Shown here piece by piece: positions 3,310 to 62,830 of a stretch of 64,000 nt of DNA. A model generated the notes under the pieces. The model worked only from the letters and a program-made list of their open reading frames with translations. It was not told the origin of the DNA and ran no database searches. The number at the start of each line of letters is the position of its first letter. Positions within the stretch are counted from its first letter, which is position 1. The stretch is from Nereocystis luetkeana (lineage: Eukaryota > Sar > Phaeophyceae > Laminariales > Laminariaceae): the NCBI GenBank assembly GCA_031213475.1, contig JARUPZ010000015.1, positions 9,700,528 through 9,764,527 on the forward strand, given 5' to 3'. Made by a program: the position numbers and the translations under genes.

Positions 3310-5389
3310 TAGTTGTGGTGACATTGAGTAGTGAGCATGGCGTAAATGGTGTGAAGTGCTGTAGAAGGTGCTTGTTTGGCGTTGTGTCCTGGTGTGGGTT
3401 TTTCCAACGTGTTGGCAGGATAGAGCTGTGTCGGTTGAAAAACATGATCCCGGCACACTACTATTAATAATAGTGGCCATGAAGCATGCGTACCTTTTAA
3501 GAACGCTAGACTACGATCAGCACCAAGAGACATGTAGAGTAGACGTGTAGAGTAGAGGGTAGAGCTGTGAGTCGGCACGATTTATCTCACCAACTGGTTG
3601 TTCGTCGGACTAATAGTTACCAGGTATTAATAGTCGTTTCCCTGAGGTGCCAACTATCCGACTTGATGGATTTCCATACCTGTGGGAAGGGTTGCTGAAT
3701 GCGGGATTACTGTGTCATGTGTTTGGCGGGGGGGTCTCTCTGCCGGGCAGGGCTGATTTGTTGACTTAAATCGGCTAGTCGGCTCGCGACCAGCTGGCGT
3801 AACCAAGCCAAGGTCAGCCGACTTGTCCCCTACAGCTACTGTAGTTAGTTGGCTAACGGCACCTACCGATTAGCTACTAGTCGTGAGATCCTGGCCACTC
3901 ACACCTCTGGTAGAGGGGCTTTAATGTTTGTCCTTTTGGCAGATAACGGGATACCTGGACAGAAAACGGTGTCTCCCAGTGTTGAGCCTTGAGCTGGGGT
4001 TCTACCATTACGTGGCGGTAAAACCACCGGTGTACCGTTTTATGGCGACTGTGGCGGGTTGTGGGTGCGTCTGTTCTCTTCGCCGGTACAAGACCCCAGG
4101 GTGTGTGAGATAGGGCCAACAAGGAGAGCGAGGGATCCGGTGCGATAGGCTGACCTATGTTTTCGTGGGCAGTCGCGTGCTGTGCCGTTTGTGAAAATTG
4201 TTTTCTTGTTCGGCGGAGGTGATGTTGGTTCCTCCCGTTTATCTCTCATGCTGCTTACTATTAATAATGTTGTGGCCTGTGGTCCCGACTGATGCCGTAG
4301 GCTATTAGACGTTTACCCAGTACCCGACCCGTGTGTCTTTTCGTGTTTTTGCTGTTCCAGTAGTTGACGTTGGTGGTGATACATCAGGTATAGGGTAGGG
4401 TGACACCGTAGGGTAGGCGAGTAGGTTCCGATACGAACGGCGTGTGTGTATTTATGTTTTGTGTGTATGATGTGTGTGCCGCGACTCGCCAGGTATTACC
4501 GTACAATCCGTTTGATGTGTTTGTGGATATGTTTTTTGTCTGTTTTTTCCGCTGGGTACCGAAGCGCTGTTCCTTTGTGTTACAGTTTTTTGTGTGGGAT
4601 GGGATGGCAGGGGATGGAGGGTGCTATATAGCATGGTATAGTCCGTGCAGTACAATATGTGCGTTATGTTTTCGGCTAAAATACGCCCGTTTCTAAAACT
4701 TTTGAAATATTCGTATGAGGACTTGAAAGGTGACACCACCACCTGACTGGGCCAGTCGTCATCACCAGGAATGAGGAACGAGGGGATCAAACACCCTGGT
4801 CAACCATGCATGTTTCTCCAACTCTAATACCAGCAATAATACTTCATGGGGTCAAAAACTGGCACTACAAGTATGGTTGTCGCACACGACAGATGGAAGA
4901 TTCAGCAAGTTTCCCAATTCCCATCATACACATGCGTGGTGTACGGACTGAAAAAACTAGACTACAGTTGTACGAGTCTGCTACTTCTTCGAATAATTCA
5001 GGTCCCAAAAAATGTTGAGTGGGCTCATCAGTTGCGAAGGCAGGTTATTAGCCGAAACATCGACTTTTCGGGTGTTTTTTTCAACATTTTTAGTCTTGCA
5101 GTATTCAGTTGTCGAGAGCGCCTTGCAGCGTGGGTATAGGCACAATTCGATGCGAGTCGACGAGGGAAGAAAAGGCTGAAATCTTCTCGCGATAAAAATG
5201 AAGGCACGTACCGTAGCGGGAAGGGGGGAGAAGAGCTTGCTATGTGACCCCGGATCTGAGTTACGAGTTGGAAGAGGAGAGAGAAGAAGATGTGCGAAGA
5301 TAATTAATGGGATGAGCAAAAAAAAGAATAAAATAAAAAAGTGGTTTCACGGCTGAATCAAGCCCCCTCTACGATAGTAGTAGTTATGA
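3310..5389. other. No gene seen; unit 2 counterpart partly replaced
   Basis: Holds several TATTAATA palindromes (3463, 3630, 4258), a TACCAGGTA at 3628, and an inverted repeat AGTCGGCT/AGCCGACT around 3777-3823. The region at 4209-4470 corresponds to the diverged patch of unit 2. Confidence 0.45.
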
Positions 5390-7190: not shown

Positions 7191-8455
7191 CACACACAGC
7201 AGAGTAGACAGCGCTGCGCACCCGCCACGGGTGGTGCCCAAGGGAAGGGGGGGGAAAGGGGGCTACAGGGGAGAAGTGGAAGGAAACCCGACCACGTGAA
7301 TGCGGGGAGGGGCAACGGGAGGGGGGGGTGTACTCGGAGGGAGATATGTGTGTGCTCGATCTCATGCATGGCCGTAGTCGTATGACCATACACCCTCGCA
7401 TCCCTACAATGCCGGGACGGAGCATGTCATGCCGGGACGCAGCAGGTGATGCCGGGACGGAGCATGTCGGGTTTTCCCCTCATTGCTTGCACCAAGCGCG
7501 AAGCGCCGTGTGAGGTGTCTGGCGAGTCGCATAAAAGGTGAGCTGCAGTGCACCCTACTAAGAATCGTTTGTGAGGCGGACTTGCATATGGATGACGCTA
7601 GCTTCAATGAGGTGATTTAGTTTCCGGTGTACTGGTTATTGCCCCTTCCAGAGACAGTAATGAATGATGGGAGTACTATGTAACTGCCTCTTGGGTCGGG
7701 GGGGGGGGCAGGAGGGGTATGTATAGAAGGGAAACCGCAGTGGACGAAAGTAGGAAGGAGGCGGCAGACAGAGTAGTAGCAAGGTACCAGAGAGGCCGAC
7801 CATTAATAACATGTCTATCAGGCATGCTACTATTAATACTTGTGCCGCCAACTACGAAATAACTGCTGCGGCTCGTTTTAACGTGGTCTTTTCTTGTCCT
7901 ATTTTTATTTTGCGCTTGGCCTTCGGTGATTTTCATGTTTCATTGCTTCATCTCTTTTTTTGCTCCCTCGGTCCTGCACCTGATGAAAGGAGAGTCGTGC
8001 GGCGTGAGGGGTAGGTGACGAGCCGTATTGTTTGCTCGTTTCGTAACGTCTGGCGCATCCTCTCCCGTGGCGGGGCATAGTTGACGAGCGCAGGACGGAG
8101 ACGGCAGACAGGCCTGGTAGCAAGGTACTAGACCATACCAGGTAACTATTACTGATAAATTAAGGAGAATCTGTCTATGGCTGTGCTCCTTGTAACATAA
8201 ACTGCTGTGGCTTCCTGGAGGGTGCTTTGTGCTTCGGGTTATTGCCTATCAGTTCCTTAGGATGGATGTTTGTCTTGCTCTGTTATTTTTTTGTTGTAGT
8301 GGTGCTGCTTCTTCAGCTCGTTGTTTTCAAGTGTCTGCCACATCTCCTGAGGGGAGGTACGACAGTTTTTCCTTTCATTTTTCCATTTCTCTTTCGATTT
8401 GTGTCCTTGTCGTCTGGGTTGTTTTTCTTGTACATTACCTGGTATAACAGAAATA
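7191..8455 (+). mobile_element. Old plus-strand LINE relic split by repeat X
   Basis: Positions 7191-7326 match the RT frame's C-terminal coding end (block GTAGACAGCGCTGCGCAC.. GGTGCCCAAGGG). Positions 7703-7795 match the following stretch (GACGAAAGTAGGAAGGAGG), and 7870-8440 match the LINE's 3' region (block GGCATAGTTGACGAGCGCAG near 8078). The order is collinear with the intact LINE, with about 375 bases of repeat X inserted at a G run. The coding part is decayed. Unit 2 copy: about 36764-38022. Confidence 0.7.
7327..7702 (+). mobile_element. Repeat X, copy inside the LINE relic
   Basis: A ~375-base block bounded by G runs on both sides and interrupting the LINE relic, so it is mobile or was. 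It starts GTGTACTCGGAGGG, contains CTCGATCTCATGCATGGCCG and a triplicated GATGCCGGGACGGAGCATGT unit, then GCGCGAAGCGCCG and CAGAGACAGTAATGAATG near the end. The second full copy is at 12045-12356. Unit 2 copy: about 36900-37275. Confidence 0.6.
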
Positions 8456-8530
8456 TGTAGTAGCAGTAGTGGTATTAATAGTAGTAGTAGGAGTAGTAGT
8501 AGTAGTAGTAGTAGTATTAAATAGTACCAG
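8456..8530. repeat. TAG/AGT microsatellite
   Basis: An imperfect (AGT)n run of about 70 bases, followed at 8536-8582 by CAG/CTG trinucleotides that form a hairpin (AGCAGCAG.. CTGCTGCT). Unit 2 copy: 38024-38150, with different repeat numbers. Confidence 0.75.
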
Positions 8531-9581
8531 GTATAGTAGTACAGCAGCAGTATAGCTGCTGCTACTACTGCTACTACTGCTGCTGTGTTGTCATGCTGCC
8601 ACACACAACATCAGCAACACGAGCCTAATATGGCGCTGGCCTGCCCCCTACGGGCCATCACATCATGCACGCTGTGGGTAAGGGGCAATGATTGGCGGGA
8701 ACCAATAATATGATTCCTGATTGATCGAACGCAGTATTTTGTTTTACGTACGTACGTGTACCTTTTTTTACGATACCTTTCTCGTTTGCTTCCAAGCTGT
8801 CGTCCAGGAGGTATACGGGGTGTACCCTATCTGTTGGTCTCGATGTGCAGCTATTTTGTTGTGATGAAGGACGAGAACACCCGAAAGCACTTCCCGGCGA
8901 GGGTACTCTGCATGAGTCGAATGAAGTAGGGTGTTCGACGAGACGCCCTCTCGCATGACCCACACGGGCAGAGGCCCGTCTGTTCTCGTGCCGGAGGCGG
9001 AAAACACATCAGCGCGAGAGATTTTTGCAGGTGATCATTTAGTCCAACGGCCGTATGATACGAGTAAAAGGTCCTCGCGTGTTCCTTGCTCTGTGCGTGC
9101 TTCGCATTGCAGCAAGGCCGCGCGTCTGATGTCGATTGCATTTATTCGCTTTCTATCGCACGCGTAGGTGTAGTGTCCAGCCGGCGATTCTCCTCTTTCC
9201 TACTGACGTGCGCGGCAAGGGTGTACAGGTGCAGTCGCCACATGCCGCGGGTTTCCACGAAACAGAATACGGCAAGCGATTCAAACCTGTCCGGACGAAA
9301 AAACACACCACAAATTGAAAAATCGACGGACAAGTGGATTCGAATCGCCACCACCAGATAGATCAGGATAGATGATAGATCAGGGGTCAGGATCGGGGTT
9401 GATTGGAAAGAGTTGGGTTGCGTCCATCTATCTGGTCGCAGTGCACTTGGTGCATTCATTCGCGCCGGGCCCGTCACGTCTGAAAGATACGGCGCAAGAC
9501 ACACACAACAGCAGGGGTACACAGCATACCTCTATCTCTGGCAAAATTCGCTCCTCCTACGTATGAGTACGATATACGATA

Positions 9582-9590
9582 TACCAGGTA
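9582..9590. repeat. TACCAGGTA site absent from unit 2
   Basis: Unit 1 reads CGATATACCAGGTATAACG where unit 2 (39141-39152) reads CGATATATAACG. The difference is exactly 7 bases, one TA plus the core CCAGG. Confidence 0.7.
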
Positions 9591-9945
9591 TAACGCCATG
9601 ATGAGCAGGAGCGACCATTTTGATTTTGAGTTTGATTCCTGAAAACGCCGTGTGTGTGCTGTCGAGCCCAAAATGCTTTTGAACAGGATTCGGAGTTTTG
9701 CTTTTTTGCATGGCTTATCATATGAGAAAAAAAGCGCGGAATACTTCCGCCAATCAAACACCCGAAAACAGACGACAGATATGTACGATGCGGGTTCGAA
9801 CACTCTGCTGTCTGTTTTTTTTTTCACGTTTTTTGCCTGATACCCCGTTCTCTAGGTTCCGCGGAGAGATCCGCTCGAGTTACCGCTGTCAGTATTTCCC
9901 AGCCGTAATTTGTTCCAGGTTCGAATGAAAGATGAGCAAATCATG

Positions 9946-9990: not shown

Positions 9991-10202
9991 GTGTACATGA
10001 GATAGTGTGAGCACCACCACTCCAACTGCTGTTGTTGTGTGGTTTCTGTTGCCGCTTATCAATAGACGCACTCCCCGCCTTGGCAGCTTCTACTATTAAT
10101 ATTAATACCTGTACTTTGTCTACAAGCATCGACCCACGAATAATACCTGGTACCCGGTACAGCAGCAGCAGTAGTAGACTATTAATAAGTGGTCTCCCTC
10201 TA

Positions 10203-10375
10203 TAATGCCGGTTGGTTGAGTATGATAGTGCCGGCTGCCCGCTATAATGCCGGTGAATCGCTTGGCACATGTATATGATGGGGTTAACAAGCGTGGCAGT
10301 GTGTTATTAATAGTGCCGATTGCCACTACTACTGCTTTATAGTGCCGGTCGGTATTATTGTTGGCTGGCGCATAC
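10203..10375. repeat. Degenerate TATARTGCCGGT repeats
   Basis: TATAATGCCGGTTGG, GATAGTGCCGGCTG, TATAATGCCGGTGAA, AATAGTGCCGATTG and TATAGTGCCGGTCGG recur at uneven spacing. No function is evident. Unit 2 copy: about 39783-40063, with the MITE inserted within it. Confidence 0.5.
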
Positions 10376-10664
10376 CGGCGGCACCATAGAAGTACGACTA
10401 TTATTAATAATACTGCTGTAAGAAGAACGCATTGTAATGCTCACTTCCTGAGGGACGCTCAAATATACAAATACGAAAACAGATTTTTTAAGAAAATGCG
10501 ATCAGCGGCGAGAGCTACACTAAACCAAATCCTACCACTATACTATACTATACTGTACAACAATATATGCTCAGAGGGTCTGATAGAATACTCGATATTA
10601 ATGGTAATATTCAAAGCTGTAGTACTATTAATAATAGATACCAGGTATTGCTATGCTATGTGCG

Positions 10665-11948: not shown

Positions 11949-14900
11949 GTGAAGGAGGGTGATATTATTCGTACCTGGTACTTCGTATACCTGGTATATT
12001 ACACGGATACATATACAGCAGTAATGACGGCCTGGAGAATAGGCGCGTGTGGTTGGGGGGAAGGGGGGTGTACTCGTTGTCATGCGTGGCCGTATTCGTA
12101 TGACTGTAGAACTTTGCAACCGTACACTGCCGGGACGGAGCGCGTCGGGTTTCCGGCAGATTTGAGATGGCACCGAGCGCGAAGCGCCGCGAGGTGTTTT
12201 GCGAGTCGCACGAAGGGTGAGCTGCATCCTGTATACCAAGAACCGCTTGTGAGGCGCACATTCTTGCATTCGAATGACAGCGTCGAATTAATAGATCTGT
12301 TGTCCGGTGTGGCCACTTCCAGAGACAGCAATGAAAAGGAACTGGGGGGGGGGGGGGGACTGAAGAAGGGAGGGGGGGGAGATGTTGAGGGGGGTGAGGG
12401 AAGGGATAGTGATCATTCATTGATTCGTACTTGTGCTTGGGGAGGAGCTGTGACGCGGCTGCTGTTGTAACTGCTGCTTTCTGCATTCACATGCTACACC
12501 CGGATTATAACTTAGAAAGCTAGATATGTTTGTTGGGTATCGTTATGATAAATTCCGAGATGCAGCAGTGTATCGAGTATTGAACTTTGTACACCTTGGT
12601 ATATCGTATTTCGAACAATCGCTTTCGAACGATCGCTTTCGATATGTCGACTGGTCTTCTTGTCGACCGCGTCTTGCCCTCCACCCCCTCCCATTCCCAT
12701 GGCTATTTTACATGTAGATATACATGTACTCTGCACGACTCAAATCGTTTATCGACGTACTAATATACCTGGTACACATATTGTTGGTCGGTATAACGTT
12801 ATTGCGAGCAGAGCGATCGACGGAATCCGCCAGCGGGGCGAAGCGGCTTGTATATATCTCTCGGACATTCGTGCTCCTCATTCGGGGGCTGTAAGCTCCA
12901 ATAATGCTGTTGTCGTCATTTATGAATGATTCGGGTAAATGTAATATACCAGGTATGCGCCGACTGCTGTAATCTGTGCGCCGCGAGTTGGACCGAAACG
13001 GTCGAGTGTCACGCTTAAAAGCTTTTCGACGGGATTGGTCAAATGCTCAAGTTTGGCGATTTGCAAATTTTGTAGGCTGTGTGCGATAGTTTCGGGGGAT
13101 CGTATCGCAACATTCCATATGTTGTAACAGAAGATCGAAGTTTGGGTGTAGGGTGTAAATATCGAACTTGGTTTTCGCTCCTTCCCCTGGCAATCATCTC
13201 CGTATTTGTTTTTAGCCGATCCTGAACGAAAACGCTTCGACGCACTTACACATTTCCAATCGAACTTCAAAATCATACATATCACGACTTTTTTCTTTTA
13301 TCGGGAGTGCATGGAAATCTGCTCTCGTTCGATACCAACATACCGCCTTCTGTTGGATCAACCATTCTTGTCCCAGGAGGACGCGCGGAAGCAGGACGCT
13401 GTCCGTCGAAAGGAGGCAGCCATGAAGCTGGCCGAGAGAGCCCATTCATACAACGCGCGGTTCCGGTCTCGATCCGGTCGACCCTCCTCCTCCTCTGCGG
13501 CACCCCTCACCAGCGGCGTGCGCTCGAGGAGCGTCTCCAGTCACCCTGGAGTTAACGCCGGAAAACCCACCGGAGGTGACACTCGTCCCAGGCCTGGAGG
13601 CCACCCTGGAGTCAATGCTGACGGCATCGCCGGGGGCGCGAGAGGAGGAGCTCCAGGAGGAGCAGGAGGAGGCCAGCCGCGGGCGAGGTCCTCCCCTCCC
13701 GGCCATGTGCCGCAGCGGGAGCGATACCGGTCCGCTGTTGATTCCGCCACCGCCACTGCCACCGCCGACTCCGGCGTCGATACCGACGGTTTCAGGCGTC
13801 CGGGAAGCGGAAGCGGAGGCGGGGGTCGGGGGGGATATGCTGGCGGGGGCAAGGGTCGTGGTCGGGGTCAGTCCACGATGGGTGCGAAGTCGGCATTGAG
13901 TCTAAGATCGGGGGCGGGGGGCGGGTTAGGGCCCGGTGTGGCGTCTACGCGCGGCGCCCCTCGGACTCGATCGGGCTCGCGGCAGCAGCCAGTGGGCGAG
14001 ACCGTCCGGGCAGGCGGTGACCACGGTGTTGGTGGTACTACTGGTACTACTGGTGGTGGTGGTTGTGATGGGTGTGAAGCTGAGGATAGTGCGGGTGGTG
14101 GTGTTGATGGGTGTGGTGTGGGTGTTGACGGTGGTGGTGGTGTTAGTGTTGGTGTTGGTGGTGTAGGTGGCGGTGTTGGTGTCGGCGGCGTTGGTGTTGG
14201 TGGTGGTGGTGGCGGTGTTGGTGTCAGCGGGGGTGGTGGTGGAGGTGTCGGCGGTGTTAGTGTTGGTGGTGGTGGTGGCGGTGTTGGTGTTAGTGGGGGT
14301 GGTGGTGGTGGAGGTGTCGGCGGTGTTAGTGTTGGTGGAGGTGGCGGCGGTGGGGGTGGTGGTGGTAGTGGCGGTGTTGGTGTTAGTGGGGGTGGTGTTG
14401 GTCGTGTTGGTCGTGGCGGTGGTGGTGGTGGGGGTGGTGATGTTGGTGGAGGTGGCGGCGGTGGGGGTGGTGGTGGTAGTGTTCGTGGGGGTGGTGTTGA
14501 TGGAGGTGGCGGCGGTGATGATGATGGTGTTGGGCAGCCCCATGCGGTCACCACAGGCAGGAGTGGACGTGAGTGTGGGCATGCCGGGGCTGGGCGGCGT
14601 TCTGCCTGGAGTGGCAAGAGCCAGAACCCTTCTGGAAGGTGAAATACATCGTATTGACATACCTGGTCTGTGGTATCGAACTGTCGATAAATCGACTTGT
14701 TCAACGCGTTTTTCCCTCCGTCCCCTGGCATCTCCATGTTTTGTTTTGCCGGCTGAAGGCTGCGATATTACTGATATTAATCGAATATCGAATTTGCATC
14801 GAATCGAGTTTAGTATTTGTTTTCTACGCTAGGTATCGTATCGAACTTAAATATATCGTTCGATGTTTGTCATTCGGTACCCGTGGTGAAGTGTAGCAGT

Positions 14901-29661: not shown

Positions 29662-31545
29662 TGCTTCGTATATAGACTGCGGCAGCATAGAGGCCCGCCG
29701 TTACTCAGATGGTGAAATGCTGGGTCTGTACGAGTATCTAGCCTTGGGGCTCGAGAGTGTGGTGGTGTGGCAGTCATGACTGGTGAGTATAGAAATGTCA
29801 ATCGATCCCATGATGTTGATATTCATACTGTGGCTGTGACAGTCCATCATGATGTTGATAGCGATTCAGTCGATCATGATTTTGTTGATAGCGATTCAGT
29901 CGATCATGATTTTGTTGATAGCGATATCGATAGTTGTGGTGACATTGAGTAGTGAGCATGACGTAAATGGTGTGAAGTGCTGTAGAAGGTGCTTGTTTGG
30001 CGTTGTGTCCTGGTGTGGGTTTTTCCAACGTGTTGGCAGGATAGAGCTGTGTCGGTTGAAAAACATGATCCCGGCACACTACTATTAATAATAGTGGCCA
30101 TGAAGCATGCGCACCTTTTAAGAACGCTAGACTACGATCAGCACCAAGAGACATGTAGAGTAGAGGGTAGAGCTGTGAGTCGGCACGATTTATCTCACCA
30201 ACTGGTTGTTCGTCGGACTAATAGTTACCAGGTATTAATAGTCGTTTCCCTGAGGTGCCAACTATCCGACTTGATGGATTTCCATACCTGTGGGAAGGGT
30301 TGCTGAATGCGGGATTACTGTGTCATGTGTTTGGCGGGGGGGTCTCTCTGCCGGGCAGGGCTGATTTGTTGACTTAAATCGGCTAGTCGGCTCGCGACCA
30401 GCTGGCGTAACCAAGCCAAGGTCAGCCGACTTGTCCCCTACAGCTACTGTAGTTAGTTGGCTAACGGCACCTACCGATTAGCTACTAGTCGTGAGATCCT
30501 GGCCACTCACACCTCTGGTAGAGGGGCTTTAATGTTTGTCCTTTTGGCAGATAACGGGATACCTGGACAGAAAACGGTGTCTCCCAGTGTTGAGCCTTGA
30601 GCTGGGGTTCTACCATTACGTGGCGGTAAAACCACCGGTGTACCGTTTTATGGCGACTGTGGCGGGTTGTGGGTGCGTCTGTTCTCTTCGCCGGTACAAG
30701 ACCCCAGGGTGTGTGAGATAGGGCCAACAAGGAGAGCGAGGGATCCGGTGCGATAGGCTGACCTATGTTTTCGTGGGCAGTCGCGTGCTGTGCCGTTTGT
30801 GAAAATTGTTTTCTTGTTCGGCGGCGGTGATGGCGGTGATGCTGTTTCCTCCCGTGTATCTCTCATGCTACTTACTATTGATGCTGTTGTTGCGTGTGGT
30901 CCCGACTGATACCGCAGGCAAGACGTTTACCCAGTACCGGACCCGTGTGCCTTTTCGTGTTTTTGCTGTTGTTGACGTTTGTGGTGTTACGTCAGGCATA
31001 GGGTATGGTGACACTGTATGGTAGGTGAGTACAGTAGGTTCCGATGCGAACGGCGTGTGTGTAGGTATGCATTACGTGTGTGATGTGTGTGCCGCGACTC
31101 GCCAGGTATTACCGTACAATCAGTTTGATGTGTTTGTGGATATGTTTTTTGTCTGTTTTTTCCGCTGGGTACCGAAGCGCTGTTCCTTTGTGTTACAGTT
31201 TTTTGTGTGGGATGGGATGGCAGGGGATGGAGGGTGCTATATAGCATGGTATAGTCCGTGCAGTACAATATGTGCGTTATGTTTTCGGCTAAAATACGCC
31301 CGTTTCTAAAACTTTTGAAATATTCGTATGAGGACTTGAAAGGTGACACCACCACCTGACTGGGCCAGTCGTCATCACCAGGAATGAGGAACGAGGGGAT
31401 CAAACACCCTGATCAACCATGCATGTTTCTCCAACTCTGATACCAGCAATAATACTTCATGGGGACAAAAACTGGCACTACAAGTATGGTTGTCGCACAC
31501 GACAGATGGAAGATTCAGCAAGTTTCCCAATTCCCATCATACACA

Positions 31546-33084: not shown

Positions 33085-33795
33085 TTTTTTTGGGGGGGGG
33101 GGGGCTAACCGGTTCTAGGTACTCCAAAGCATATCTGCAAAAACAATCGCGCAAATATTCAAAGGCCTGACTCCGTAGGATGAATATCAAGTTGCATTCC
33201 AGGCCAGAGGCTTATCAAATACTGAAACAAAGTAATTACAAGGCAGCTTACTGGTGCCATTTTTGCACTTCTACTATTAATATTTTGCTTGCCATCCGAC
33301 AATGTGCAGTGTTGTTCTAATAGACGACTGACAGAAAGTGAAGAACTCTCCAGAAAAAAAGCGCGGCAGTATCCTACGACTATTATCATAGAGAAATATG
33401 TACAAGTTCTGTTTTGTGGATACAAATCTACGCCCCAGAAATAGTAGATAGTACGCTGAGTAGACATGCAATGCCATGTCATCATGCTGGATACGATATA
33501 CACGATAAGTATACACATCCTATGAAGGAGAGAAAACAGAAAAAACGAGAAATGAAAATAAAACAGAAACCAAAAAGAAACCAAACCGAATGAAGAGAAA
33601 AAATAAGCTAAACAAGGGAAAACTGCTGTGCCTGCACGCAGGGGAGGGGGTAGAACGAGCTAATGAAACAGCACCAACCACTGCATCGAGACAGAGAAGA
33701 GAGATTAGAACACAGAGAGCAAGGCTAAGACAAAAACCAAGGGAAAAAACGAAATACCATGGTAACTGTCAAACCGAAGCACAACGTCGACGTGT

Positions 33796-36598
33796 GTGTG
33801 TGTGTGTGTTCTTCACATTAAACCGTTCTTTCTACCCGTCGACATCCAGCACAACCAGTGTCCGTGCCGATTCTTCCATCCTAGAAGAGATACAAGTTCT
33901 GTGGTCACAAAGCTACGCCACAGAGATACTACGTTGCCACGTGTGCAGTGTGAACTGCAGTGGGCAATGCAAAGCCATGTCATCATACTAGATACGACAG
34001 GCACGACATACGCAATCTATGAAATAGTGAAACGAAAAGAAACAATCAAAGAGAAAACAAAACAAGGTAGACAAGTCGAAAAAGAAAAAGAAGAAAAATG
34101 AAAGCAAAATCTAAGAGAAACAATCTGTCGTGCCCCCCCCCCCGCAGGCGAGGTGGCCTACACTTGAAAAAGAACGAGCTGGAAAAAAGAAGAAATAACA
34201 AAAGACACCACTGCTTGTGAACAGAGTAAGACAAAGAACCAAGGAGAAAGTAACAAGGAAAAATAACAAAGGGGAAATAACAGGCAGACCAAAGCCCAAA
34301 GCACCTTCTAGGTGGCGGCAGCAGCTTGTGGTACGAGTAGTATAGCCAGGTTCTCCCTGCTAATCCGCCTGGTACCTTGCTACCCAGACTGCCGTCTCCG
34401 CCCTGCGTTCGTCAACTATGCCCAGCCCCTTGGCGTCAGACAATACGAGCCGAGCAGAGCAGGTTCGTCATCCAACCACGCCACACGGCTCCTTGAGTAC
34501 GGCTTATCAATCAGAAAAGGAAGAGGAAGAGAAAAAATGAAATGAAAATCACGGAGAGTCAGCGCAAGAGAGAAAAAAAAAAAAAAAAAACAAAAAAAAA
34601 AAAACTAAAAGAGAAGACAAGGGAAGACCACGTTCGAGCCAGCTGCACCAGTTGGTAGCACTAGTAGTATGGTCATATTCTACTTCCTAGTCGACTTGGT
34701 GCCTTGCTACCCTGTCTGCCATCTCCTTCCTACTTTCGTCTACCGCCGTTTCCCTTCTACCCCTCCTGTTCCCCCCCCTCTCCGCATTCACTCGGTCGGG
34801 CTTTATGCCACTTCTCCTGTTGCCCCCTCCCCCCCCGTTCCTTTGGGCACCATCCACGGCGGATGCGCGGCGCTGTCTACTCATCTCAGCCTCAGCCTCG
34901 TGCCACCTCACCATGAACCGTTCGGCTGCTTCAAGGATCCCCCGGTACCACTTCCCCGCCTTTTTGGCTGCTGTGGACCACAACGCGGTCTCAACTCCAA
35001 ACACCAAGGGGGCAACTTCCGTTGACCCTTCGGTGGCTCGGAACTCCCTAAGGTCTTCGACTATGCATCTATGCCAAGTCTTACACTGTCCGCCTGGTCT
35101 CGGGTTCTCCCCACCAGCTATCGTCCCGAGCATTACCCGATTGGGTAATCGCTCCTTGCTTTGCCGTGCCACGCCCCCCGCAAAGAAGAGCCGCCGTTTG
35201 CGAATGGTCGTTTCGATGCTCTCGCAACGTGTCATCTTGAGGGCCTTCGCGTACGAGAGGGTGGCATGGTCAGTACGAAGTCGGCGCTGGAAGCCAATGA
35301 CTCGCAACAGGACTTGGTGGTGAGCCGTTCGAAGCTTGGCAAAGTGTTCCGCTCTGAGGGTCCACGTCACACACCCGTACAGCAGGGTCTCAATCATCTC
35401 GGCCTTCAGCATTCGGACTTTAAGGCTAAGGGGGGCGGTCGTCCTATCATACAACTCCGGGCCGAACCGTTTGAAGCATGCTCGCATGAGGCGGATCCGT
35501 CGGTCGATTTCGAGCGAGAGGTCAGCGTTTTCGTGGATAACGCCGCCTAGGTATAAGAACTGGGTCGTCTGCTTATACCTCTGACCTGCCGCTTCGATGA
35601 CGAGCGGTGGTGCGAGGGTTGTCCGGTCTGGTGTTTGTAGGACCATTGTCTCAGTCTTCTTTTCCGACACCGTGAGGCCTGCTGCTTCGAAGACAGTCAC
35701 GATGACTGTCATCATTTTTGCGAGCCCTTCAGCCGACTTCGAGACAATTCCTGCATCGTCGGCGTACAACATGCCCCATACAGACCTTCGCACGCACGCC
35801 AATGGCTCCTCCTTCCCTGTTCGAACTACTCCAGCTTCCAAGAGTTGGACCAAATCCCTTACAATGGCTTCGTCTTGGCTGAAGCGTACTAGTACGACGT
35901 GTAACGCAGCAGCGAAGAACACGTTGAACAGTAACGGTGACAGTACACAGCCTTGCCGCAGCCCCTGCGTGACATCAAACCATTCCGAGAGCTCGCCGTC
36001 ATCAGTACGCACGCGAGCCCGCATGCCATCGTGGAAATTACGGATAATTCTCAGCATCTTGGTTGGTACGCCAAAGCGTGTGAGTACCTTCCATAACAGC
36101 TCTCGGTCGACAGAGTCGTACGCTTTCTGCAGATCGATGAAGCACACGTATAAGGGGATTTTCCTCTGTCGTCCGAGCTCTTGCAGCCGGCGCACGACGA
36201 ACAACATATCAATCGTTGATCGTGCGGGGCGGAAGCCGCACTGTTCCTCGGGGAGTAGTTCCTCGGTCTCGCAGTAGTTGCTGAGGCGGGACGCGACGAT
36301 TTTCAACAACACTTTGCCTGCGTGGGCAACAAGCGAGATCCCTCTATAGTTGTTGCAGTCAGTTCGATCCTTCTTTTTGTGAAGGACCTTGATGATCGCA
36401 TCTTTCCATTGCTGAGGGACTTCTCCTGTTAACCAAACATTGACAAGGATGTTGTGAAAGCGCTGGGCGAATGCCGGGTGGTCGATTTTTAGGAGTTCGA
36501 CCGGGAGACCATCTGGCCCGACAGCTTTCCAATTCGACATCCCCTTCAGTGCTTCGGTCATCTCGTCTATGGATGGTTCATCTTCAAGCGACAGTTTA
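33796..36598 (-). mobile_element. RTE-like LINE, 5'-truncated, private to unit 2
   Basis: Unit 1 runs from its 7026 area uninterrupted where unit 2 has 2.8 kb extra. The target GACGTGT is duplicated at 33789-33795 and 36599-36605. Read on the minus strand, the element has an open reverse transcriptase frame, an 890-base 3' region with A- and C-rich runs, and ends in a (CA)n tail. A dinucleotide tail instead of poly(A), and the RT sequence, point to the RTE clade. The endonuclease part expected upstream of RT is missing, as usual after incomplete reverse transcription. Absence from unit 1 and the open frame show a recent insertion. Confidence 0.88.
34687..36598 (-). CDS. LINE reverse transcriptase, N-terminally truncated
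   Basis: About 636 codons without a stop. The open frame extends to an ATG at 36642, but the first 16 codons are flanking DNA, so that is not a native start. Motifs in order: [46 protein letters not shown] (catalytic Asp), [22 protein letters not shown] (YADD, near 35755-35766), and FLYLGG. Then comes the C-terminal region [17 protein letters not shown] typical of RTE/BovB-type LINEs, ending in a Gly/Arg-rich tail ([11 protein letters not shown]). In the family this enzyme performs target-primed reverse transcription in the nucleus. All RT catalytic residues are present, but without the endonuclease the copy should not be autonomous. Confidence 0.9.
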
Positions 36599-39332
36599 GA
36601 CGTGTAGAAAGAACAGACACAAACAACGGGGCGATAAGGCACAGTATTTCTGTGGCGTAGGTTTTGCTACCACAGAACTTGTATCTCTCTAGGATTGAAG
36701 ACTGGCACGGACACTGGTTGTGCTGGATGTCGACGGGTAGAAGGGACGGTCGAACGTGAAGAACACACACAGCAGAGTAGACAGCGCTGCGCACCCGCCA
36801 CGGGTGGTGCCCAAGGGAAGGGGGGGGAAAGGGGGCTACAGGGGAGAAGTGGAAGGAAACCCGACCACGTGAATGCGGGGAGGGGCAACGGGAGGGGGGG
36901 GTGTACTCGGAGGGAGATATGTGTGTGCTCGATCTCATGCATGGCCGTAGTCGTATGACCATACACCCTCGCATCCCTACAATGCCGGGACGGAGCATGT
37001 CATGCCGGGACGCAGCAGGTGATGCCGGGACGGAGCATGTCGGGTTTTCCCCACATTGCTTGCACCAAGCGCGAAGCGCCGTGTGAGGTGTGTGACGAGT
37101 CGCATAAAAGGTGAGCTGCAGTGCACCCTACTAAGAATCGTTTGTGAGGCGGACGTGCATATGGATGACGCTGGCTTCAATGAGGTGATTTAGTTTCCGG
37201 TGTACTTGTTATTGCCGCTTCCAGAGACAGTAATGAATGATGGGAGTACTATGTAACTGCCTCTTGGGTCGGGGGGGGGGGCAGGAGGGGTATGTATAGA
37301 AGGGAAACCGCAGTGGACGAAAGTAGGAAGGAGGCGGCAGACAGAGTAGTAGCAAGGTACCAGAGAGGCCGACCATTAATAACACGTCTATCAGGCATGC
37401 TACTATTAATACTTGTGCCGCCAACTACGAAATAACTGCTGCGGCTCGTTTTAACGTGGTCTTTTCTTGTCCTATTTTTATTTTTGCGCTTGGCCTTCGG
37501 TGATTTTCATGTTTCATTGCTTCATCTCTTTTTTTGCTCCCTCGGTCCTGCACCTGATGAAAGGAGAGTCGAGGGGTAGGTGACGAGCCGTATTGTTTGC
37601 TCGTTTCGTAACGTCTGGCGCATCCTCTCCCGTGGCGGGGCATAGTTGACGAGCGCAGGACGGAGACGGCAGACAGGCCTGGTAGCAAGGTACTAGACCA
37701 TACCAGGTAACTATTACAGATAGATTAAGGAGAATCTGTCTATGGCTGTGCTCCTTGTAACATAAACTGCTGTGGCTTCCTGGAGGGTGCTTTGTGCTTC
37801 GGGTTATTGCCTATCAGTTCCTTAGGATGGATGTTTGTCTTGCTCTTTTATGTTTTTGTTGTAGTGGTGCTGCTTCTTCAGCTCGTTGTTTTCAAGTGTC
37901 TGCCACATCTCCTGAGGGGAGGTACGACAGTTTTTCCTTTCATTTTTCCATTTCTCTTTCGATTTGTGTCCTTGTCGTCTGGGTTGTTTTTCTTGTACAT
38001 TACCTGGTATAACAGAAATATGTAGTAGCAGTAGTGGTATTAATAGTAGTAGTAGGAGTAGGAGTAGTATAGTAGTAGTAGTAGTAGTATTAAATAGTAC
38101 CTGGTATAGTAGTACAGCAGCAGTATAGCTGCTGCTACTACTGCTACTGCTGCTGTGTTGTCATGCTGCCACACACAACATCAGCAACACGAGCCTAATA
38201 TGGCGCTGGCCTGCCCCCTACGGGCCATCACATCATGCACGCTGTGGGTAAGGGGCAATGATTGGCGGGAACCAATAATATGATTCCTGATTGATCGAAC
38301 GCAGTATTTTGTTTTACGTACGTACGTGTACCTTTTTTTACGATACCTTTCTCGTTTGCTTCCAAGCTGTCGTCCAGGAGGTATACGGGGTGTACCCTAT
38401 CTGTTGGTCTCGATGTGCAGCTATTTTGTTGCGATGAAGGACGAGAACACCCGAAAGCACTTCCCGGCGAGGGTACTCTGCATGAGTCGAATGAAGTAGG
38501 GTGTTCGACGAGACGCCCTCTCGCATGACCCACACGGGCAGAGGCCCGTCTGTTCTCGTGCCGGAGGCGGAAAACACATCAGCGCGAGAGATTTTTGCAG
38601 GTGATCATTTAGTCCAACGGCCGTATGATACGAGTAAAAGGTCCTCGCGTGTTCCTTGCTCTGTGCGTGCTTCGCATTGCAGCAAGGCCGCGCGTCTGAT
38701 GTCGATTGCATTTATTCGCTTTCTATCGCACGCGTAGGTGTAGTTTCCAGCCGGCGATTCTCCTCTTTCCTACTGACGTGCGCGGCAAGGGTGTACAGGT
38801 GCAGTCGCCACATGCCGCGGCTTTGCACGAGATAGAATACGGCAAGCGATTCAAACCTGTCCGGACGAAAAAACACACCACAAATTGAAAAATCGACGGA
38901 CAAGTACTTAGTGGATTCGAATCGCCACCAGATAGATGATAGATCAGGGGTCAGGATCGCGATTGATTGGAAAGAGTTGGGTTGCGTCCATCTATCTGGT
39001 CGCAGTGCACTTGGTGCATTCATTCGCGCCGGGCCCGTCACGTCTGAAAGATACGGCGCAAGACACGCACAACAGCAGGGGTACACAGCATACCTCTATC
39101 TCTGGCAAAATTCGCTCCTCCTACGTATGAGTACGATATACGATATATAACGCCATGATGAGCAGGAGCGACCATTTTGATTTTGAGTTTGATTCCTGAA
39201 AACGCCGTGTGAGTGCTGTCGAGCCCAAAATGCTTTTGAACAGGATTCGGAGTTTTGCTTTTTTGCATGGCTTATCATATGAGAAAAAAGCGCGGAATAC
39301 TTCCGTCAATCAAACACAAAACAGACGACAGG

Positions 39333-39341
39333 TACCTGGTA
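39333..39341. repeat. TACCTGGTA site absent from unit 1
   Basis: Unit 2 reads CAGGTACCTGGTATGTACG; unit 1 (9776-9785) reads CAGATATGTACG. This is a 7-base difference plus one substitution. Confidence 0.65.
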
Positions 39342-39894
39342 TGTACGATGCGGGTTCGAACACTCTGCTATCTGTTTTTTTTTTTCACGTTTTTTGCCTG
39401 ATACCCCGTTCTCTAGGTTCCGCGGAGAGATCCGCTCGAGTTACCGCTGTCAGTATTTCCCAGCCGTAATTCGTTCCAGGTTCGAATGAAAGATGAGCAA
39501 ATCATGGGATGTGATATGATACGATACGATATGATATTATATGATATGACATACGATATGATAATATCATATGATACAGTGTACATGAGATAGTGTGAGC
39601 ACCACCACTCCAACTGCTGTTGTTGTGTGGTTTCTGTTGCCGCTTATCAATAGACGCACTCCCCGCCGTGGCAGCTTCTACTATTAATACCTGTACTTTG
39701 TCTACAAGCATCGACCCACGAATAATACCTGGTACCCGGTACAGCAGCAGCAGTAGTAGACTATTAATAAGTGGTCTCCCTCTATAATGCCGGTTGGTTG
39801 AGTATGATAGTGCCGGCTGCCCGCTATAATGCCGGTGAATCGCTTGGCACATGTATATGATGGGGTTAACAAGCGTGGCAGTGTGTTATTAATA

Positions 39895-39998
39895 TTACGG
39901 GGGACCATAGTTAACAGGACCTATGGTACACATAAAACCTATATGTTTAACCATTTTTACTAACAATATTTGGTCCTGTTAACTATGGCCCCCCGTAA
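39895..39998. mobile_element. 104-bp MITE with 27-bp TIRs and TA target duplication, private to unit 2
   Basis: The ends are TTACGGGGGACCATAGTTAA and the reverse of TTACGGGGGGCCATAGTTAA. The inverted repeat is 27 bases with one mismatch. TA flanks both sides (39893-39894 and 39999-40000), and the unit 1 site near 10303 is empty with a single TA. Size and TA duplication fit a Stowaway-like MITE of the Tc1/mariner superfamily. It has no coding capacity. Confidence 0.9.
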
Positions 39999-41462
39999 TA
40001 GTGCCGATTGCCACTACTACTGCTTTATAGTGCCGGTCGGTATTATTGTTGGCTGGCGCATACCGGCGGCACCATAGAAGTACGACTATTATTAATAATA
40101 CTGCTGTAAGAAGAACGCATTGTAATGCTCACTTCCTGAGGGACGCTCAAATATACAAATACGAAAACAGATTTTTTAAGAAAATGTGATCAGCGGCGAG
40201 AGCTACACTAAACCAAATCCTACCACTATACTTTACTATACTGTACAACAATATATGCTCAGAGGGTCTGATAGAATACTCGATATTAATGGTAATATTC
40301 AAAGCTGTAGTACTATTAATAATAGATTCCAGGTATTGCTATGCTATGTGCGTGTTCTTCACAGTAAACCGTTTTTTCTACCCCGTCGACATCCAGTACA
40401 ACCAGTTTCGAGTTTCCTTCCACGCCTCTTGTTGCCCCCCCTGCCCCCATTCCCTTGGGCACTACTCACGCCGGGTGCCGGGCGCTTTCTACTCAGCTGT
40501 ATGATATGTACTCTGTGAATGACCTGGCGTAGTACAGGACAAACAAGCGATAAGAAAGGCCGGCTTAGGCTGACAAGGACATAAGAAATCCGCCCGTCAT
40601 TGTACTGGAGTTAGTGTTGAATGCACCCATGCCGAAATAATAAATCCAGCCTGTGGAACAGCTGTGCTGTTTCTTATAATAGTGCTGTTGTACAGCAGTA
40701 TAGCTGAAGCACAAATTGGTACTGAACACCGTATTAATAGTAATGCTAGTAATAGTGAACGCGTCCCGGGACGTTGTGATCGTGCAAGCGTGCAAAGGCA
40801 CCCAGGGGCGTTCACTATGTGGTCGGGTCCGCATTTTCTGGAGAAAGAGTAACTGCGGCCTTTTCGGGGTAATACAAAAACCAAAAATACTGGAAAAAAC
40901 GGGTATCCACGACATACCCCAAGATCTGGTACATGATAACACATGCCTGGTACTTTTTCGAGTGGCTGAGTCATGACTATTTTTAAACGGCAGAACATCA
41001 TAGGGGTGCTTTGGTATCTGTCCTTGGCTGATTCTGCCTTTTCTGTTGTTGCTCAGCGCACGTACATACCCATCCCATGCGTCGAACATTCCTATGTAAA
41101 GCGCCCGTTGGCGCCTCCTTCGGGTACAGCTCCCTTCCCTAATCCCAATGGGGTCGCTAGCTCCACCCCGGGACGTTTACCAATAAAAAAATCAAGGGGC
41201 ATTTACTATGTGGCCGAGGCGTTTTTCGTACTTTGGTTCTAGATAGAAGGCGTTCACGCCAGAATATGCTCCTTTTGTGCTGAAAATAGCGACCCGAGGC
41301 GTTCACTATTAATAGTATTGCTATGGTCATCGTCCCCTCTACCTACTGTATGTGCAATAAATAGTCTCTCTCGGTAGTAGCCCGGACTGATCCTCGTCTC
41401 CAATGTTGTCTCTAACCGCTCGCTTCGAAAGGTAACGAGGTACTACTGGTGAAGTGAGGTGG

Positions 41463-47400: not shown

Positions 47401-50204
47401 GGCAGGCGAAGGAAGCCGTTCACGACAAGCTCCCGCTCATGCAGCCCCCCCTGGAGAAGACGGCTTTTACTGCGCATGACTCGCAGGGGTCCTGCGACCG
47501 CTTGTTGCACGGTGAGAGCTATGGTGAGCTATGTATGTACCACAGGTAGCTGCAGCAGTAGCGCCATGGGATGATGGACACGGTTGGGGCGAACATAGGA
47601 GGTTGGTATTGGGTGTGGGGTTGGTGCCGATGCTGGCGTTGGTGCTGGTGTTTTATGGGTTGGGTAATGTGATAGCTTACCCCCTGAGTTATTGCTACTC
47701 GTGATACGAAGTCTGCTACGCCAGCAGGGCCGTTATCATACCCACCCATAGCCCATCAAGACATCCACCCTCGGACTCACCCACCCGCCTACCAGCCCGC
47801 CCACGATGTACAGCAGCACTCCAAAAGTGTGTGTGTTGTATTAATAGTGTCCAAACACATCGTGTGGGTTTTCGCATGACGATATGAAAATGCCTTGCAT
47901 TAAAGAGGATAAAAGAAAAAAAAGTGCTTCAGCTTGACCGTACTCAAATGCCAAGTCGTACGAACGATCAAAACGGAAAAAAATGTCGTTGTGAAACCCA
48001 TATTCCGTTTTTACAAAACAAACCAAAAACAACTCGAAAGGTGGGTCTTGGATCTCAGACTTTCGCGCACAAATTAGAGCGTTGTACCTCTTATAGCCAC
48101 ACTCCGGGTGCGGGGGGGGGGGGCGTACTGATTTGCTGCTTGCCTTAGTCATTAGACCATTGACCACGCATCCCTTTCGAGACGGAGCACCGTTTCTACT
48201 CCGAATAGAGACACCTCCAACAGCTGGGCACTCGTTAGGATGTTTCCATATATGACATTAAACGTTGTGCCGATCTTATCCCTTTCTTGTTTCACCGCCT
48301 GTGGCCACCTTCTGTCTCCTAGTATAGCGATTGGTTTCTCTCTACTATCCAGCGTACCAATCTTCTCCATGTTATATTCCTCCAGTTTCCTCATCTCCTC
48401 TAACGCATACCGTTCGTCCTTGTACATTTCACATTCTCCCACTACAGTATGTCAGTTGTACTCTATATTGCTTTGCCACGAGAGCACGGCTATCTGTGCA
48501 CCTACTTCCTGGTACTGCTATACTAATTTCTTCTTTCTGGCAGGTCCACGCCCCCTACACACAATCGCAGTCTCATCAGCGGTCCATAGCCCGAGTAAAA
48601 GCCTACCGAGTTAACGAAAACCCCAACCAAGGGACGCAAACGGAATTTTTCCAGAAATATATCGACTATAATACCGAATTTATGGAAACCTCAACATGGG
48701 ATACAAAACGGTCCATCCCCGGAGTAAAAACGCTCACCAGGTACGTAATTAACAGAAACCCCCAACAAGGGGATACACCTACCATCACCCGAGAAAAACG
48801 CCTACCGAAATAATGGAAACCGTAAACTAGGGAACATAAACAGTCCACCCCTGTAGGGAACACGCCTGATATTACTGACTACTGTAGATGGACCGACCAG
48901 GGGACACAAGAGGTTCATCCTCGGCGAAACAAAACTTGTGAAATAACGGGTAACCTCAACCAGGGAACCGACACGGTCCATCCCCAGAGCAAAAACCCCT
49001 GCCGTAAGAATGTAAACCCCGACCATGGGACCCACATAGTTCTTCCCCGGAAGAAAGAACGCCTACTGAATGAACGGAAACTCCATAGTAGGGGACACAA
49101 ACTGTCTATTTCCGTACGAAAAACGATCGGGAAAGTTATGAGTGATCCATGTTGAAGATCATGCTGCACATTGTCAGATGGCAAGAGGAATAATAATTAA
49201 GGTATCAATAACGACACATGAAATCAACGGGTGACACAAGCTTTTTATCCCCGAAGGCAAAACACTTTCCGAATTAACGGAAACCCAACCATGAGACCCA
49301 CACGGACCACCACGGAAAATAAAGGCCTACCGAAATAATGGAAACCCCAACCAGGGGACTCAAACGGTCCATCTCCAACGGATAAACGGCTACTAAATTA
49401 ACGGAATCCCCAACTAGGGGGGCAAGGTCCAACCGAAAAAAAACGAAAAACATTTCCGGAGCCCGCAAACAGGGAAACCATCCTGATAGGTCCCGCGAAA
49501 AAACGCCTACTGAATCCACGTAAACTCCAATCCCGAGGAGATCAACCAACCATCCCCAGGAAATCGTGCCATGCCTCGTAGAACATTAAATTCTCTTGAT
49601 TATTTGGATAGATATACTATAGTAGCAGCGGTGCTGGCTCTATGGCTGGGATAATCCCGGTTCCATACCAACCTTCTAGATGAAGCCAGCGGCCTCTGTC
49701 ATGGGTTTGGCCAATGGTGTAATTGGAGTCGGCCAATAGGATGCCTGTTCAAGAATGCCTCGTAATTTACGGCAATGATCAGCACGCGACGGTCACGATT
49801 CAGTGCGAAGCGGGACCTCTGGCGTACTCGTTGTGCCACCCAGCCTGTCGACCCATGCCGCAAAAGCGGCGCTGAACCTTTTGTATCGCGCGTTCGTGTT
49901 GACAGACAGACATACAGGCAGACAGACAAACCGGCTACACCATCATTCAAGAGGAAGGATATACCCGGGTAGAGAATGCTCTTAGTGTCGAAAGCAACAC
50001 CATACGTATGCTATATATACCCGTAAACTTACTTACCCTACTGAACACTTCCTTGGAAAGGAGCAACTGCGAGTGCGTCATGCCTGACCCGCCCCCTATT
50101 GCCCCGCCTAACCCTCCCTCCACCACTCCCGCCCGACCCGTCTTGCCCACGCGCCACCGCCATAGTAGGGTTGGACGGACCGGGGCCGGAGCCATCTTCG
50201 CGGC

Positions 50205-56217: not shown

Positions 56218-56226
56218 TACCTGGTA
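56218..56226. repeat. TACCTGGTA site absent from unit 1
   Basis: Unit 2 reads CGTGTACCTGGTATACCTC; unit 1 (26630-26641) reads CGTGTATACCTC. This is an exact 7-base difference. Confidence 0.7.
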
Positions 56227-60930: not shown

Positions 60931-60959
<29 letters not shown>

Positions 60960-62033
60960 CTTCACATTAAACCGTTCTTTCTACCCGTCGACATCCAGCA
61001 CAACCAGTGTCCGTGCCGATTCTTCCATCCTAGAAGAGATACAAGTTCTGTGGTCACAAAGCTACGCCACAGAGATACTACGTTGCCACGTGTGCAGTGT
61101 GAACTGCAGTGGGCAATGCAAAGCCATGTCATCATACTAGATACGACAGGCACGACATACGCAATCTATGAAATAGTGAAACGAAAAGAAACAATCAAAG
61201 AGAAAACAAAAACAAGGTAGACAAGTCGAAAAAGAAAAAGAAGAAAAATGAAAGCAAAATCTAAGAGAAACAATCTGTCGTGCCCCCCCCCCCGCAGGCG
61301 AGGTGGCCTACACTTGAAAAAGAACGAGCTGGAAAAAAGAAGAAATAACAAAAAACACCACTGCTTGTGAACAGAGTAAGACAAAGAACCAAGGAGAAAG
61401 TAACAAGGAAAAATAACAAAGGGGAAATAACAGGCAGACCAAAGCCCAAAGCACCTTCTAGGTGGCGGCAGCAGCTTGTGGTACGAGTAGTATAGCCAGG
61501 TTCTCCCTGCTAATCCGCCTGGTACCTTGCTACCCAGACTGCCGTCTCCGCCCTGCGTTCGTCAACTATGCCCAGCCCCTTGGCGTCAGACAATACGAGC
61601 CGAGCAGAGCAGGTTCGTCTTCCAACCACGCCACACGGCTCCTTGAGTACGGCTTATCAATCAGAAAAGGAAGAGGAAGAGAAAAAATGAAATGAAAATC
61701 ACGGAGAGTCAGCGCAAAAAAAAAAAAAAAAAAAAAACTAAAAGAGAAGACAAGGGAAGACCACGTTCGAGCCAGCTGCACCAGTTGGTAGCACTAGTAG
61801 TATGGTCATATTCTACTTCCTAGTCGACTTGGTGCCTTGCTACCCTGTCTGCCATCTCCTTCCTACTTTCGTCTACCGCCGTTTCCCTTCTACCCCTCCT
61901 GTTCCCCCCCCTCTCCGCATTCACTCGGTCGGGCTTTATGCCACTTCTCCTGTTGCCCCCTCCCCCCCCGTTCCTTTGGGCACCATCCACGGCGGATGCG
62001 CGGCGCTGTCTACTCATCTCAGCCTCAGCCTCG
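60931..62033 (-). mobile_element. Second, shorter copy of the same LINE, private to unit 3
   Basis: The unit 3 sequence leaves the common path at TTTTTTGTGTG and returns at GGGATGGG; unit 1 has the uninterrupted site at about 4589-4600. The 1.1-kb insert matches 33796-34911 of the unit 2 LINE almost base for base, including the TG run and poly-C run, and breaks off inside the RT frame's C terminus (the frame fragment is at 61820-62030). The insertion point differs from that in unit 2, so the two are independent. The 3' end lies at the TG-rich side. Confidence 0.87.
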
Positions 62034-62830
62034 TGGGATGGGATGGCAGGGGATGGAGGGTGCAATATAGCATGGTATAGTCCGTGCAGTACAATATGTG
62101 CGTTATGTTTTCGGCTAAAATACGCCCGTTTCTAAAACTTTTGAAATATTCGTATGAGGACTTGAAAGGTGACACCACCACCTGACTGGGCCAGTCGTCA
62201 ACACCAGGAATGAGGAACGAGGGGATCAAACACCCTGGTCAACCATGCATGTTTCTCCAACTCTAATACCAGCAATATTACTTCATGGGGTCAAAAACTG
62301 GCACTACAAGTATGGTTGTCGCACACGACAGATGGAAGATTCAGCAAGTTTCCCAATTCCCATCATACACATGCGTGGTGTACGGACTGCAAAAACTAGA
62401 CTACAGTTGTACGAGTCTGCTACTTCTTCGAATAATTCAGGTCCCAAAAAATGTTGAGTGGGCTCATCAGTTGCGAAGGCAGGTTATTAGCCGAAACATC
62501 GACTTTTCGGGTGTTTTTTTCAACATTTTAAGTCTTGCAGTATTCAGTTGTCGAGAGCGCCTTGCAGCGTGGGTATAGGCACAATTCGATGCGAGTCGAC
62601 GAGGGAAGAAAAGGCTGAAATCTTCTCGCGATAAAAATGAAGGCACGTACCGTAGCGGGAAGGGGGGAGAAGAGCTTGCTATGTGACCCCGGATCTGAGT
62701 TACGAGTTGGAAGGAGAGAGAGAAGAAGATGTGCGAAGATAATTAATGGGATGAGCAAAAAAAAAGAATGAAATAAAAAAAGTGGTTTCACGGCTGAATC
62801 AAGCCCCCTCTACGATAGTAGTAGTTATGA

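Follow-up and report, generated by a model that had tools for sequence, protein, structure and literature searches.

TACCWGGTA motifs dispersed in the Nereocystis luetkeana genome as probable excision scars of a TA-targeting transposon

The palindromic motif TACCWGGTA is dispersed in very many copies through the genome of the brown alga Nereocystis luetkeana. From sequence comparisons, we propose, with a probability of roughly 0.8, that these copies are excision scars of a cut-and-paste element that targets TA, works in the manner of Tc1/mariner transposons and would carry CCWGG ends. This reading had been put forward in an earlier note on the same DNA, and it is now supported by a genome-wide excess of the motif, by further presence/absence sites, by flanks resembling those of a transposase target and by a MITE of which both the element and the scar are found in this genome. 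The window, i.e. the whole stretch of 64,000 bases that was analysed (contig C15, 9700528-9764527), belongs to a 465-Mb assembly of 1987 contigs.

In the whole assembly, TACCWGGTA occurs 182,395 times, or about 392 times per Mb, and the control 1,744 times; the motif is its own reverse complement, and the control was the same pattern read backwards. The genome-wide excess implied by the earlier reading is thus observed. It is also found on smaller scales. A sample of 200 kb, made up of 20 arbitrarily placed stretches of 10 kb each, contains 79 copies, whereas 20 dinucleotide shuffles gave 1.3 on average and never more than 5. When positions 1-29700 of the window are added to these stretches (L009 to L028), the resulting 229.7 kb contain 90 copies, and a third-order Markov model predicts 1.8. 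The window itself contains 22 exact copies. A mild clustering of the sites is seen at the start of contig C1, where, over 276 kb and with arrays merged, the variance/mean ratio per 10 kb is 1.67. Among the literature matches listed, no publication treating TACCWGGTA as a scar was found.

The window is made of a tandemly repeated unit, with a first copy of about 26.6 kb (383-27008), a second one of about 29.7 kb (27008-56739) and the start of a third one. Alignments of 1 kb or more between the copies cover 39,096 bases and contain 489 substitutions, a divergence of 1.25%. Among 16 open frames compared to Pfam, a single one gave a match, a reverse transcriptase, and no match to Rfam was found in the window at gathering scores. 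An insertion in unit 2 (33792-36642) carries a reverse transcriptase frame (RVT_1, 34687-36642, minus strand), and its first 1.1 kb is present again in unit 3 (60941-62035).

Three sites at which one unit has the motif and the other a plain TA had been described in the earlier note (9582/39146, 39333/9780 and 56218/26634). All three were found again from their flanks and are exact 7-base indels, with one TA left in the empty copy. Unit 1 carries TACCAGGTA at 9582..9590 where unit 2 has a plain TA at 39146 (indel TACCAGG); unit 2 carries TACCTGGTA at 39333..39341 where unit 1 has a plain TA at 9780 (indel TACCTGG); and TACCTGGTA at 56218..56226 corresponds to a plain TA in the paralogous stretch at 26634 (again TACCTGG). 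These sites represent three of the five distinct 7-base indels between unit copies, and, with two copies available for each, the direction of the change, gain or loss, is not readable. Other 7-base indels, AGT-ACTT-AGT, ACA-ATGT-ACA and AGT-TACT-AGT (window positions 38903 and 32173, and L014 compared to L019), look like 3-base duplications with 4 additional bases and are perhaps scars of another type of transposon.

Other copies of the motif are common to the units. TACCAGGTA is found at 3618..3626 in all three copies (30226, 59958), at 8136..8144 (also at 37701) and at 12947..12955 (also at 42639), and TACCTGGTA at 8436..8444 (38001), 10144..10152 (39726), where it is followed by TACCCGGTA in tandem, 11972..11980 (41663) and 12766..12774 (42458). 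One base is changed in the second copy of TACCAGGTA at 10639..10647 (40327) and of TACCTGGTA at 11988..11996 (41679). The ten positions listed in the earlier note all correspond to an exact motif, with shifts of 0-10 bases; the site at 8436 was missing from that list, which nevertheless ended in "and others".

Presence/absence sites are not restricted to the window. The flanks of 105 scar loci were compared to about 288 kb of sampled sequence, in which some loci overlap. Six of the 105 had exact empty relatives, in 24 pairings altogether; no exact empty relative was found in this sequence for the 99 others. In every one of the 24 pairings, a single TA stands where the scar has two, and insertion at TA with TA duplication, a trait of Tc1/mariner elements, is in this way indirectly observed. 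The six loci are the three window sites, L019 at 4332, which lies in a 0.5-kb tandem repeat of which two tandem copies are empty, and L022 at 7000 and L028 at 4680, both inside copies of a 104-bp MITE. This tandem repeat and this MITE family thus provide the further presence/absence sites that the earlier reading called for. At a further locus, L011 at 6350, a TA run accounts for a 5-base difference from the nearest empties. When the MITE copies from 31 places are aligned (not all of them covering every site), exact CCWGG scars are found at one and the same TA in L011, L022 and L028, the last one being doubled. The L025 copy has a scar at another TA, with one unit followed by TACCAGGGTA, and the L018 copy has a probable decayed form. 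The TAs that bear these scars are plain TA in most other copies. At one TA of another repeat, a single scar (L017, 9700) corresponds to a double scar (L019, 1268), with like centre letters in like orientation.

All these comparisons bear on whether TACCWGGTA could be a dispersed microsatellite or a selected binding site. Its palindromic form and its short head-to-tail arrays would suit such an origin, which we nevertheless regard as hardly credible: 75 of 82 arrays are single units, the differences between copies are whole 7-base units at a TA, and, where a microsatellite would gain units beside existing ones, solitary copies stand at TAs that are plain in relatives. Furthermore, 83 distinct left 8-mers are counted among the 90 sites of the 229.7-kb sample, showing that the motif is not one amplified repeat.

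The flanks of TACCWGGTA, otherwise unlike each other and mostly unrelated, share a preference for W at position 7, which is observed on 120 of 142 sides (background of 0.52; binomial p of 3.6e-16) and on both sides at 53 of 71 sites. A at position 3 and a purine at position 1 also look raised by inspection. The pattern at position 7 is like the one given by a transposase target. When the two flanks are compared after orienting each site by its central base, they are mildly unlike at positions 1 and 3 (uncorrected for the eight positions compared), a difference that is not predicted by a freely resolved centre and that may not be real.

Other patterns were considered in the same 229.7-kb sample. 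Among the 8 of 16 arms listed for TA-NN-W-NN-TA, the next strongest is TAGGWCCTA (15 sites for 0.6 expected), which was rejected as internal to the MITE. TACGACTA and TATCGAGTA were likewise set aside as scars, being mostly within one repeat family. TACGTA is found 120 times for 55.2 expected, without W preference (230/480), and TACGAGTA/TACTCGTA 35 times for 9.8 expected, in contexts that are mostly unlike. TACCAGGTA contains CAG|GTA, which resembles a splice site.

The 104-bp MITE family provides a control, in which both the element and its scar can be followed. In unit 2, a copy lies between two TAs at 39893..40000 (MITE 39895-39998), with ends TTACGGGGG...CCCCCGTAA, inserted into TATTAATA; the empty site, TATTAATA, is at 10305..10312 in unit 1. 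The family, Tc1/mariner-like with its TTACGGGGG ends, displays both TA duplication and inverted ends, and it is abundant, with the window copy and 31 places in the sampled loci. TATTAATA is also the scar predicted if two bases of each MITE end stay, and it occurs 44 times for 4.6 expected in 229.7 kb, in mostly unlike contexts. Its flanks prefer T, A and C at positions -3, -2 and -1 (60, 58 and 52% at 43 sites, sides pooled, for a background of 28, 28 and 20%), and the flanks of MITE insertions prefer the same T, A and C (60, 69 and 51% of 35 distinct flanks). The MITE copy of L025 has TATTAATA where other copies have just a plain TA. In the window, a double TATTAATA in unit 1 (10094..10107) corresponds to a single one in unit 2 (39682), i.e. 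a 6-base indel. The match between the MITE and TATTAATA indicates that scars of TA elements persist in this genome with their target preference preserved. The Sleeping Beauty-type word TACWGTA shows a mild excess (80 for 34.6 expected in 229.7 kb), with two presence/absence sites in the window, both of them 5-base indels: TACTGTA at 48880..48886 in unit 2, with a plain TA at 19154 in unit 1, and TACAGTA at 31030..31036 in unit 2, with a plain TA in both unit 1 (4422) and unit 3 (60761), i.e. in two comparisons.

The element with CCWGG ends predicted by the earlier note did not appear in the sequence searched: none was found in 229.7 kb, no family with CCWGG ends was found among the TA-flanked inverted repeats of up to 3 kb that 264 kb contained, and the flank test over about 288 kb gave no filled relatives of scar loci. 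The inverted-repeat search yielded the TTACGGGG MITE and inverted duplications. In the flank test, 11 spacings exceeded 60 bases and seem to reflect adjacent copies of one repeat. Half-sites, i.e. TACCWGG without a following TA, amount to 89 strand-occurrences, compared to 180 for the full motif (229.7 kb). One recurring half-site stretch, starting with TACCAGGCGGATTAGC, was found three times in the sampled loci (L020 twice, and L021) and in the window insertions 33792-34902 and 60941-62035, and it sits within a longer dispersed repeat; another one, starting with TACCTGGGTGGAATCTG, was found twice.

Very many scars together with no filled copies in the sampled sequence is what programmed DNA elimination could also give, if TA-bounded germline segments were removed in the sequenced tissue and left TACCWGGTA behind. 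In ciliates, internal eliminated sequences are indeed TA-bounded and have very many excision sites, two features shared with the present motif, but their excision leaves a single TA, whereas here seven extra bases stay and sites differ between recent duplicates. Such differences between near-identical tandem copies indicate that new scars keep arising. They argue, together with the retention of another TA element, the MITE, against elimination, which we consider improbable. It is less probable still that the seven bases were inserted directly at TA without a full element, for example by the joining of released end fragments: the 7-base form is indeed the one seen in the sampled sequence, the filled form never, but we can name no known process that acts in this way, and the MITE gives evidence that insertion and excision proceed in the ordinary way here.

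Under the preferred reading, that of excision scars, the element would insert at a TA and duplicate it, with a preference for W seven bases out on both sides; this preference is observed at scar sites, and its place in the insertion step is presumed. Both ends of the element would start with 5'-CCAGG or CCTGG, as suggested by the scar. At excision, the transposase would cut the non-transferred strand at a distance of five bases within each end, and a 3' overhang TA-CCWGG would thereby stay on each flank. The two overhangs, complementary in four of their five bases, could pair and, after resolution of the middle mismatch and ligation, would give TACCAGGTA or TACCTGGTA.

The junction counts bear on the length of these overhangs. 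In 229.7 kb, there are 90 TACCWGGTA, 10 TACCGGTA and 5 TACCAGGGTA, for 1.8, 2.75 and 0.49 expected, respectively, and the dominance of one product among the junctions that CCWGG ends could yield favours the pairing of 5-base, near-palindromic overhangs. A 5-base stagger is thus favoured by the uniform junction, as far as can be judged from sequence. Alternatively, the overhangs could be short (CC and GG, two bases per end, as for Tc1), with one A or T added or kept at joining. The excess of TACCGGTA, which has no W, is in line with this possibility, as are its W at position 7 in 30 of 40 strand-counts, its presence as an insertion at a TA in the MITE copy of L028, and the two-bases-per-end scar left by the MITE family of this genome. 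This alternative is nevertheless made less likely by the W form being nine times commoner than the W-less one, as well as by the rarity of C or G at the centre (6 sites for 1.4 expected in 229.7 kb), and we hold it to be unlikely, if less so than elimination.

As a scar carries two TAs, it can be targeted again, and the head-to-tail arrays observed could result from such hits on the scar's own TAs. Arrays with mixed centres exist (A-T, T-A-A), and those of the T-A-A type fit repeated hits. Neighbouring units are equal in 11 of 16 pairs; as equal neighbours are commoner than unequal ones, slippage may contribute to the arrays. Mixed-centre arrays also fit an independent resolution of the middle base, and so does TACCAGGTA at 8525..8533, whose paralogue at 38098 is TACCTGGTA, the centre being the sole difference, as the earlier note had described. 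This pair fits an element that predates the duplication and left the two copies in separate excisions, although one mutation would also suffice; elsewhere between the copies, A/T exchanges amount to 0.33% per A or T site. Single sites on the plus strand are A-centred in 40 cases and T-centred in 35, a near-equality that is expected under any model.

The scars would persist and decay by mutation. About 66 sites with one mismatch are found above expectation beside the 90 exact ones (229.7 kb), as would be the case for scars of mixed age. The variants are uneven: C-to-T changes at the outer C are found at 18 sites for 2.6 expected, compared to 3 for 3.6 at the inner C (229.7 kb), a contrast that is not explained by plain decay. 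TATCWGGTA retains the flank preference and could be a related scar.

Sleeping Beauty leaves TACWGTA footprints, in which flanking TAs surround a short near-palindrome derived from the element ends, with an ambiguous middle base. TACCWGGTA likewise has a TA on both sides, a near-palindromic core and an ambiguous centre, the core being of 5 bases instead of 3. In the available text of the sources, footprints are given as 2-4 bp for Tc1/mariner elements (PMC7913693) and as 0-4 bp for Passer (PMC9976928). As a core of 5 bases is outside the 2-4 bp range published there, we do not file the element as a member of Tc1/mariner, but as one that works like them. Stowaway and Osmar5 elements in grasses are described, in the text available, as leaving TA-flanked terminal fragments of 1-4 bp at empty sites, with re-use of sites and several products per site (PMC1925063). 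The present motif likewise suggests TA-flanked terminal fragments and repeated use of sites, but one product dominates. In Ectocarpus, 17 Mariner-Tc1 families are listed, and the available main text does not contain the words "footprint", "excision" or "MITE" (PMC12477816).

If all three unit-specific sites, at 1.25% substitutions between the copies, are gains, scars arise at about 0.06 per kb per 1% divergence. This rate rests on three events, and the third of them comes from an alignment of 453 bases that is not part of the 39,096 bases counted. At this rate, the standing density of 0.39 per kb needs several percent of divergence, and on the gains reading no burst would be needed and few elements would suffice. 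As a rough estimate based on these three sites, few elements acting over a long time might thus have produced the approximately 180,000 scars.

Transposon histories are usually read from the insertions that stayed, whereas in this genome it is apparently the departures that can be counted. If a scar marks each departure from a TA, jumps may be countable without any copy of the element being found. In this record, a target preference can be recognised, the variants differ in age, and some sites are present in one duplicate and absent from another, so that excision rates could be readable from one assembly. As counting TA, ends and TA also picked out the MITE scars, the approach may carry over to other genomes. 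The 5-base stagger, if real, would represent a way of cutting that lies beyond the 2-4 bp stated in the available text of PMC7913693. Finally, we think it somewhat better than an even chance that an undescribed TA-targeting transposase, with 5-base staggered cuts at near-palindromic CCWGG ends, has left one uniform scar in the course of some 10^5 jumps in this lineage, few copies being kept, and that scars rather than insertions are its main trace.
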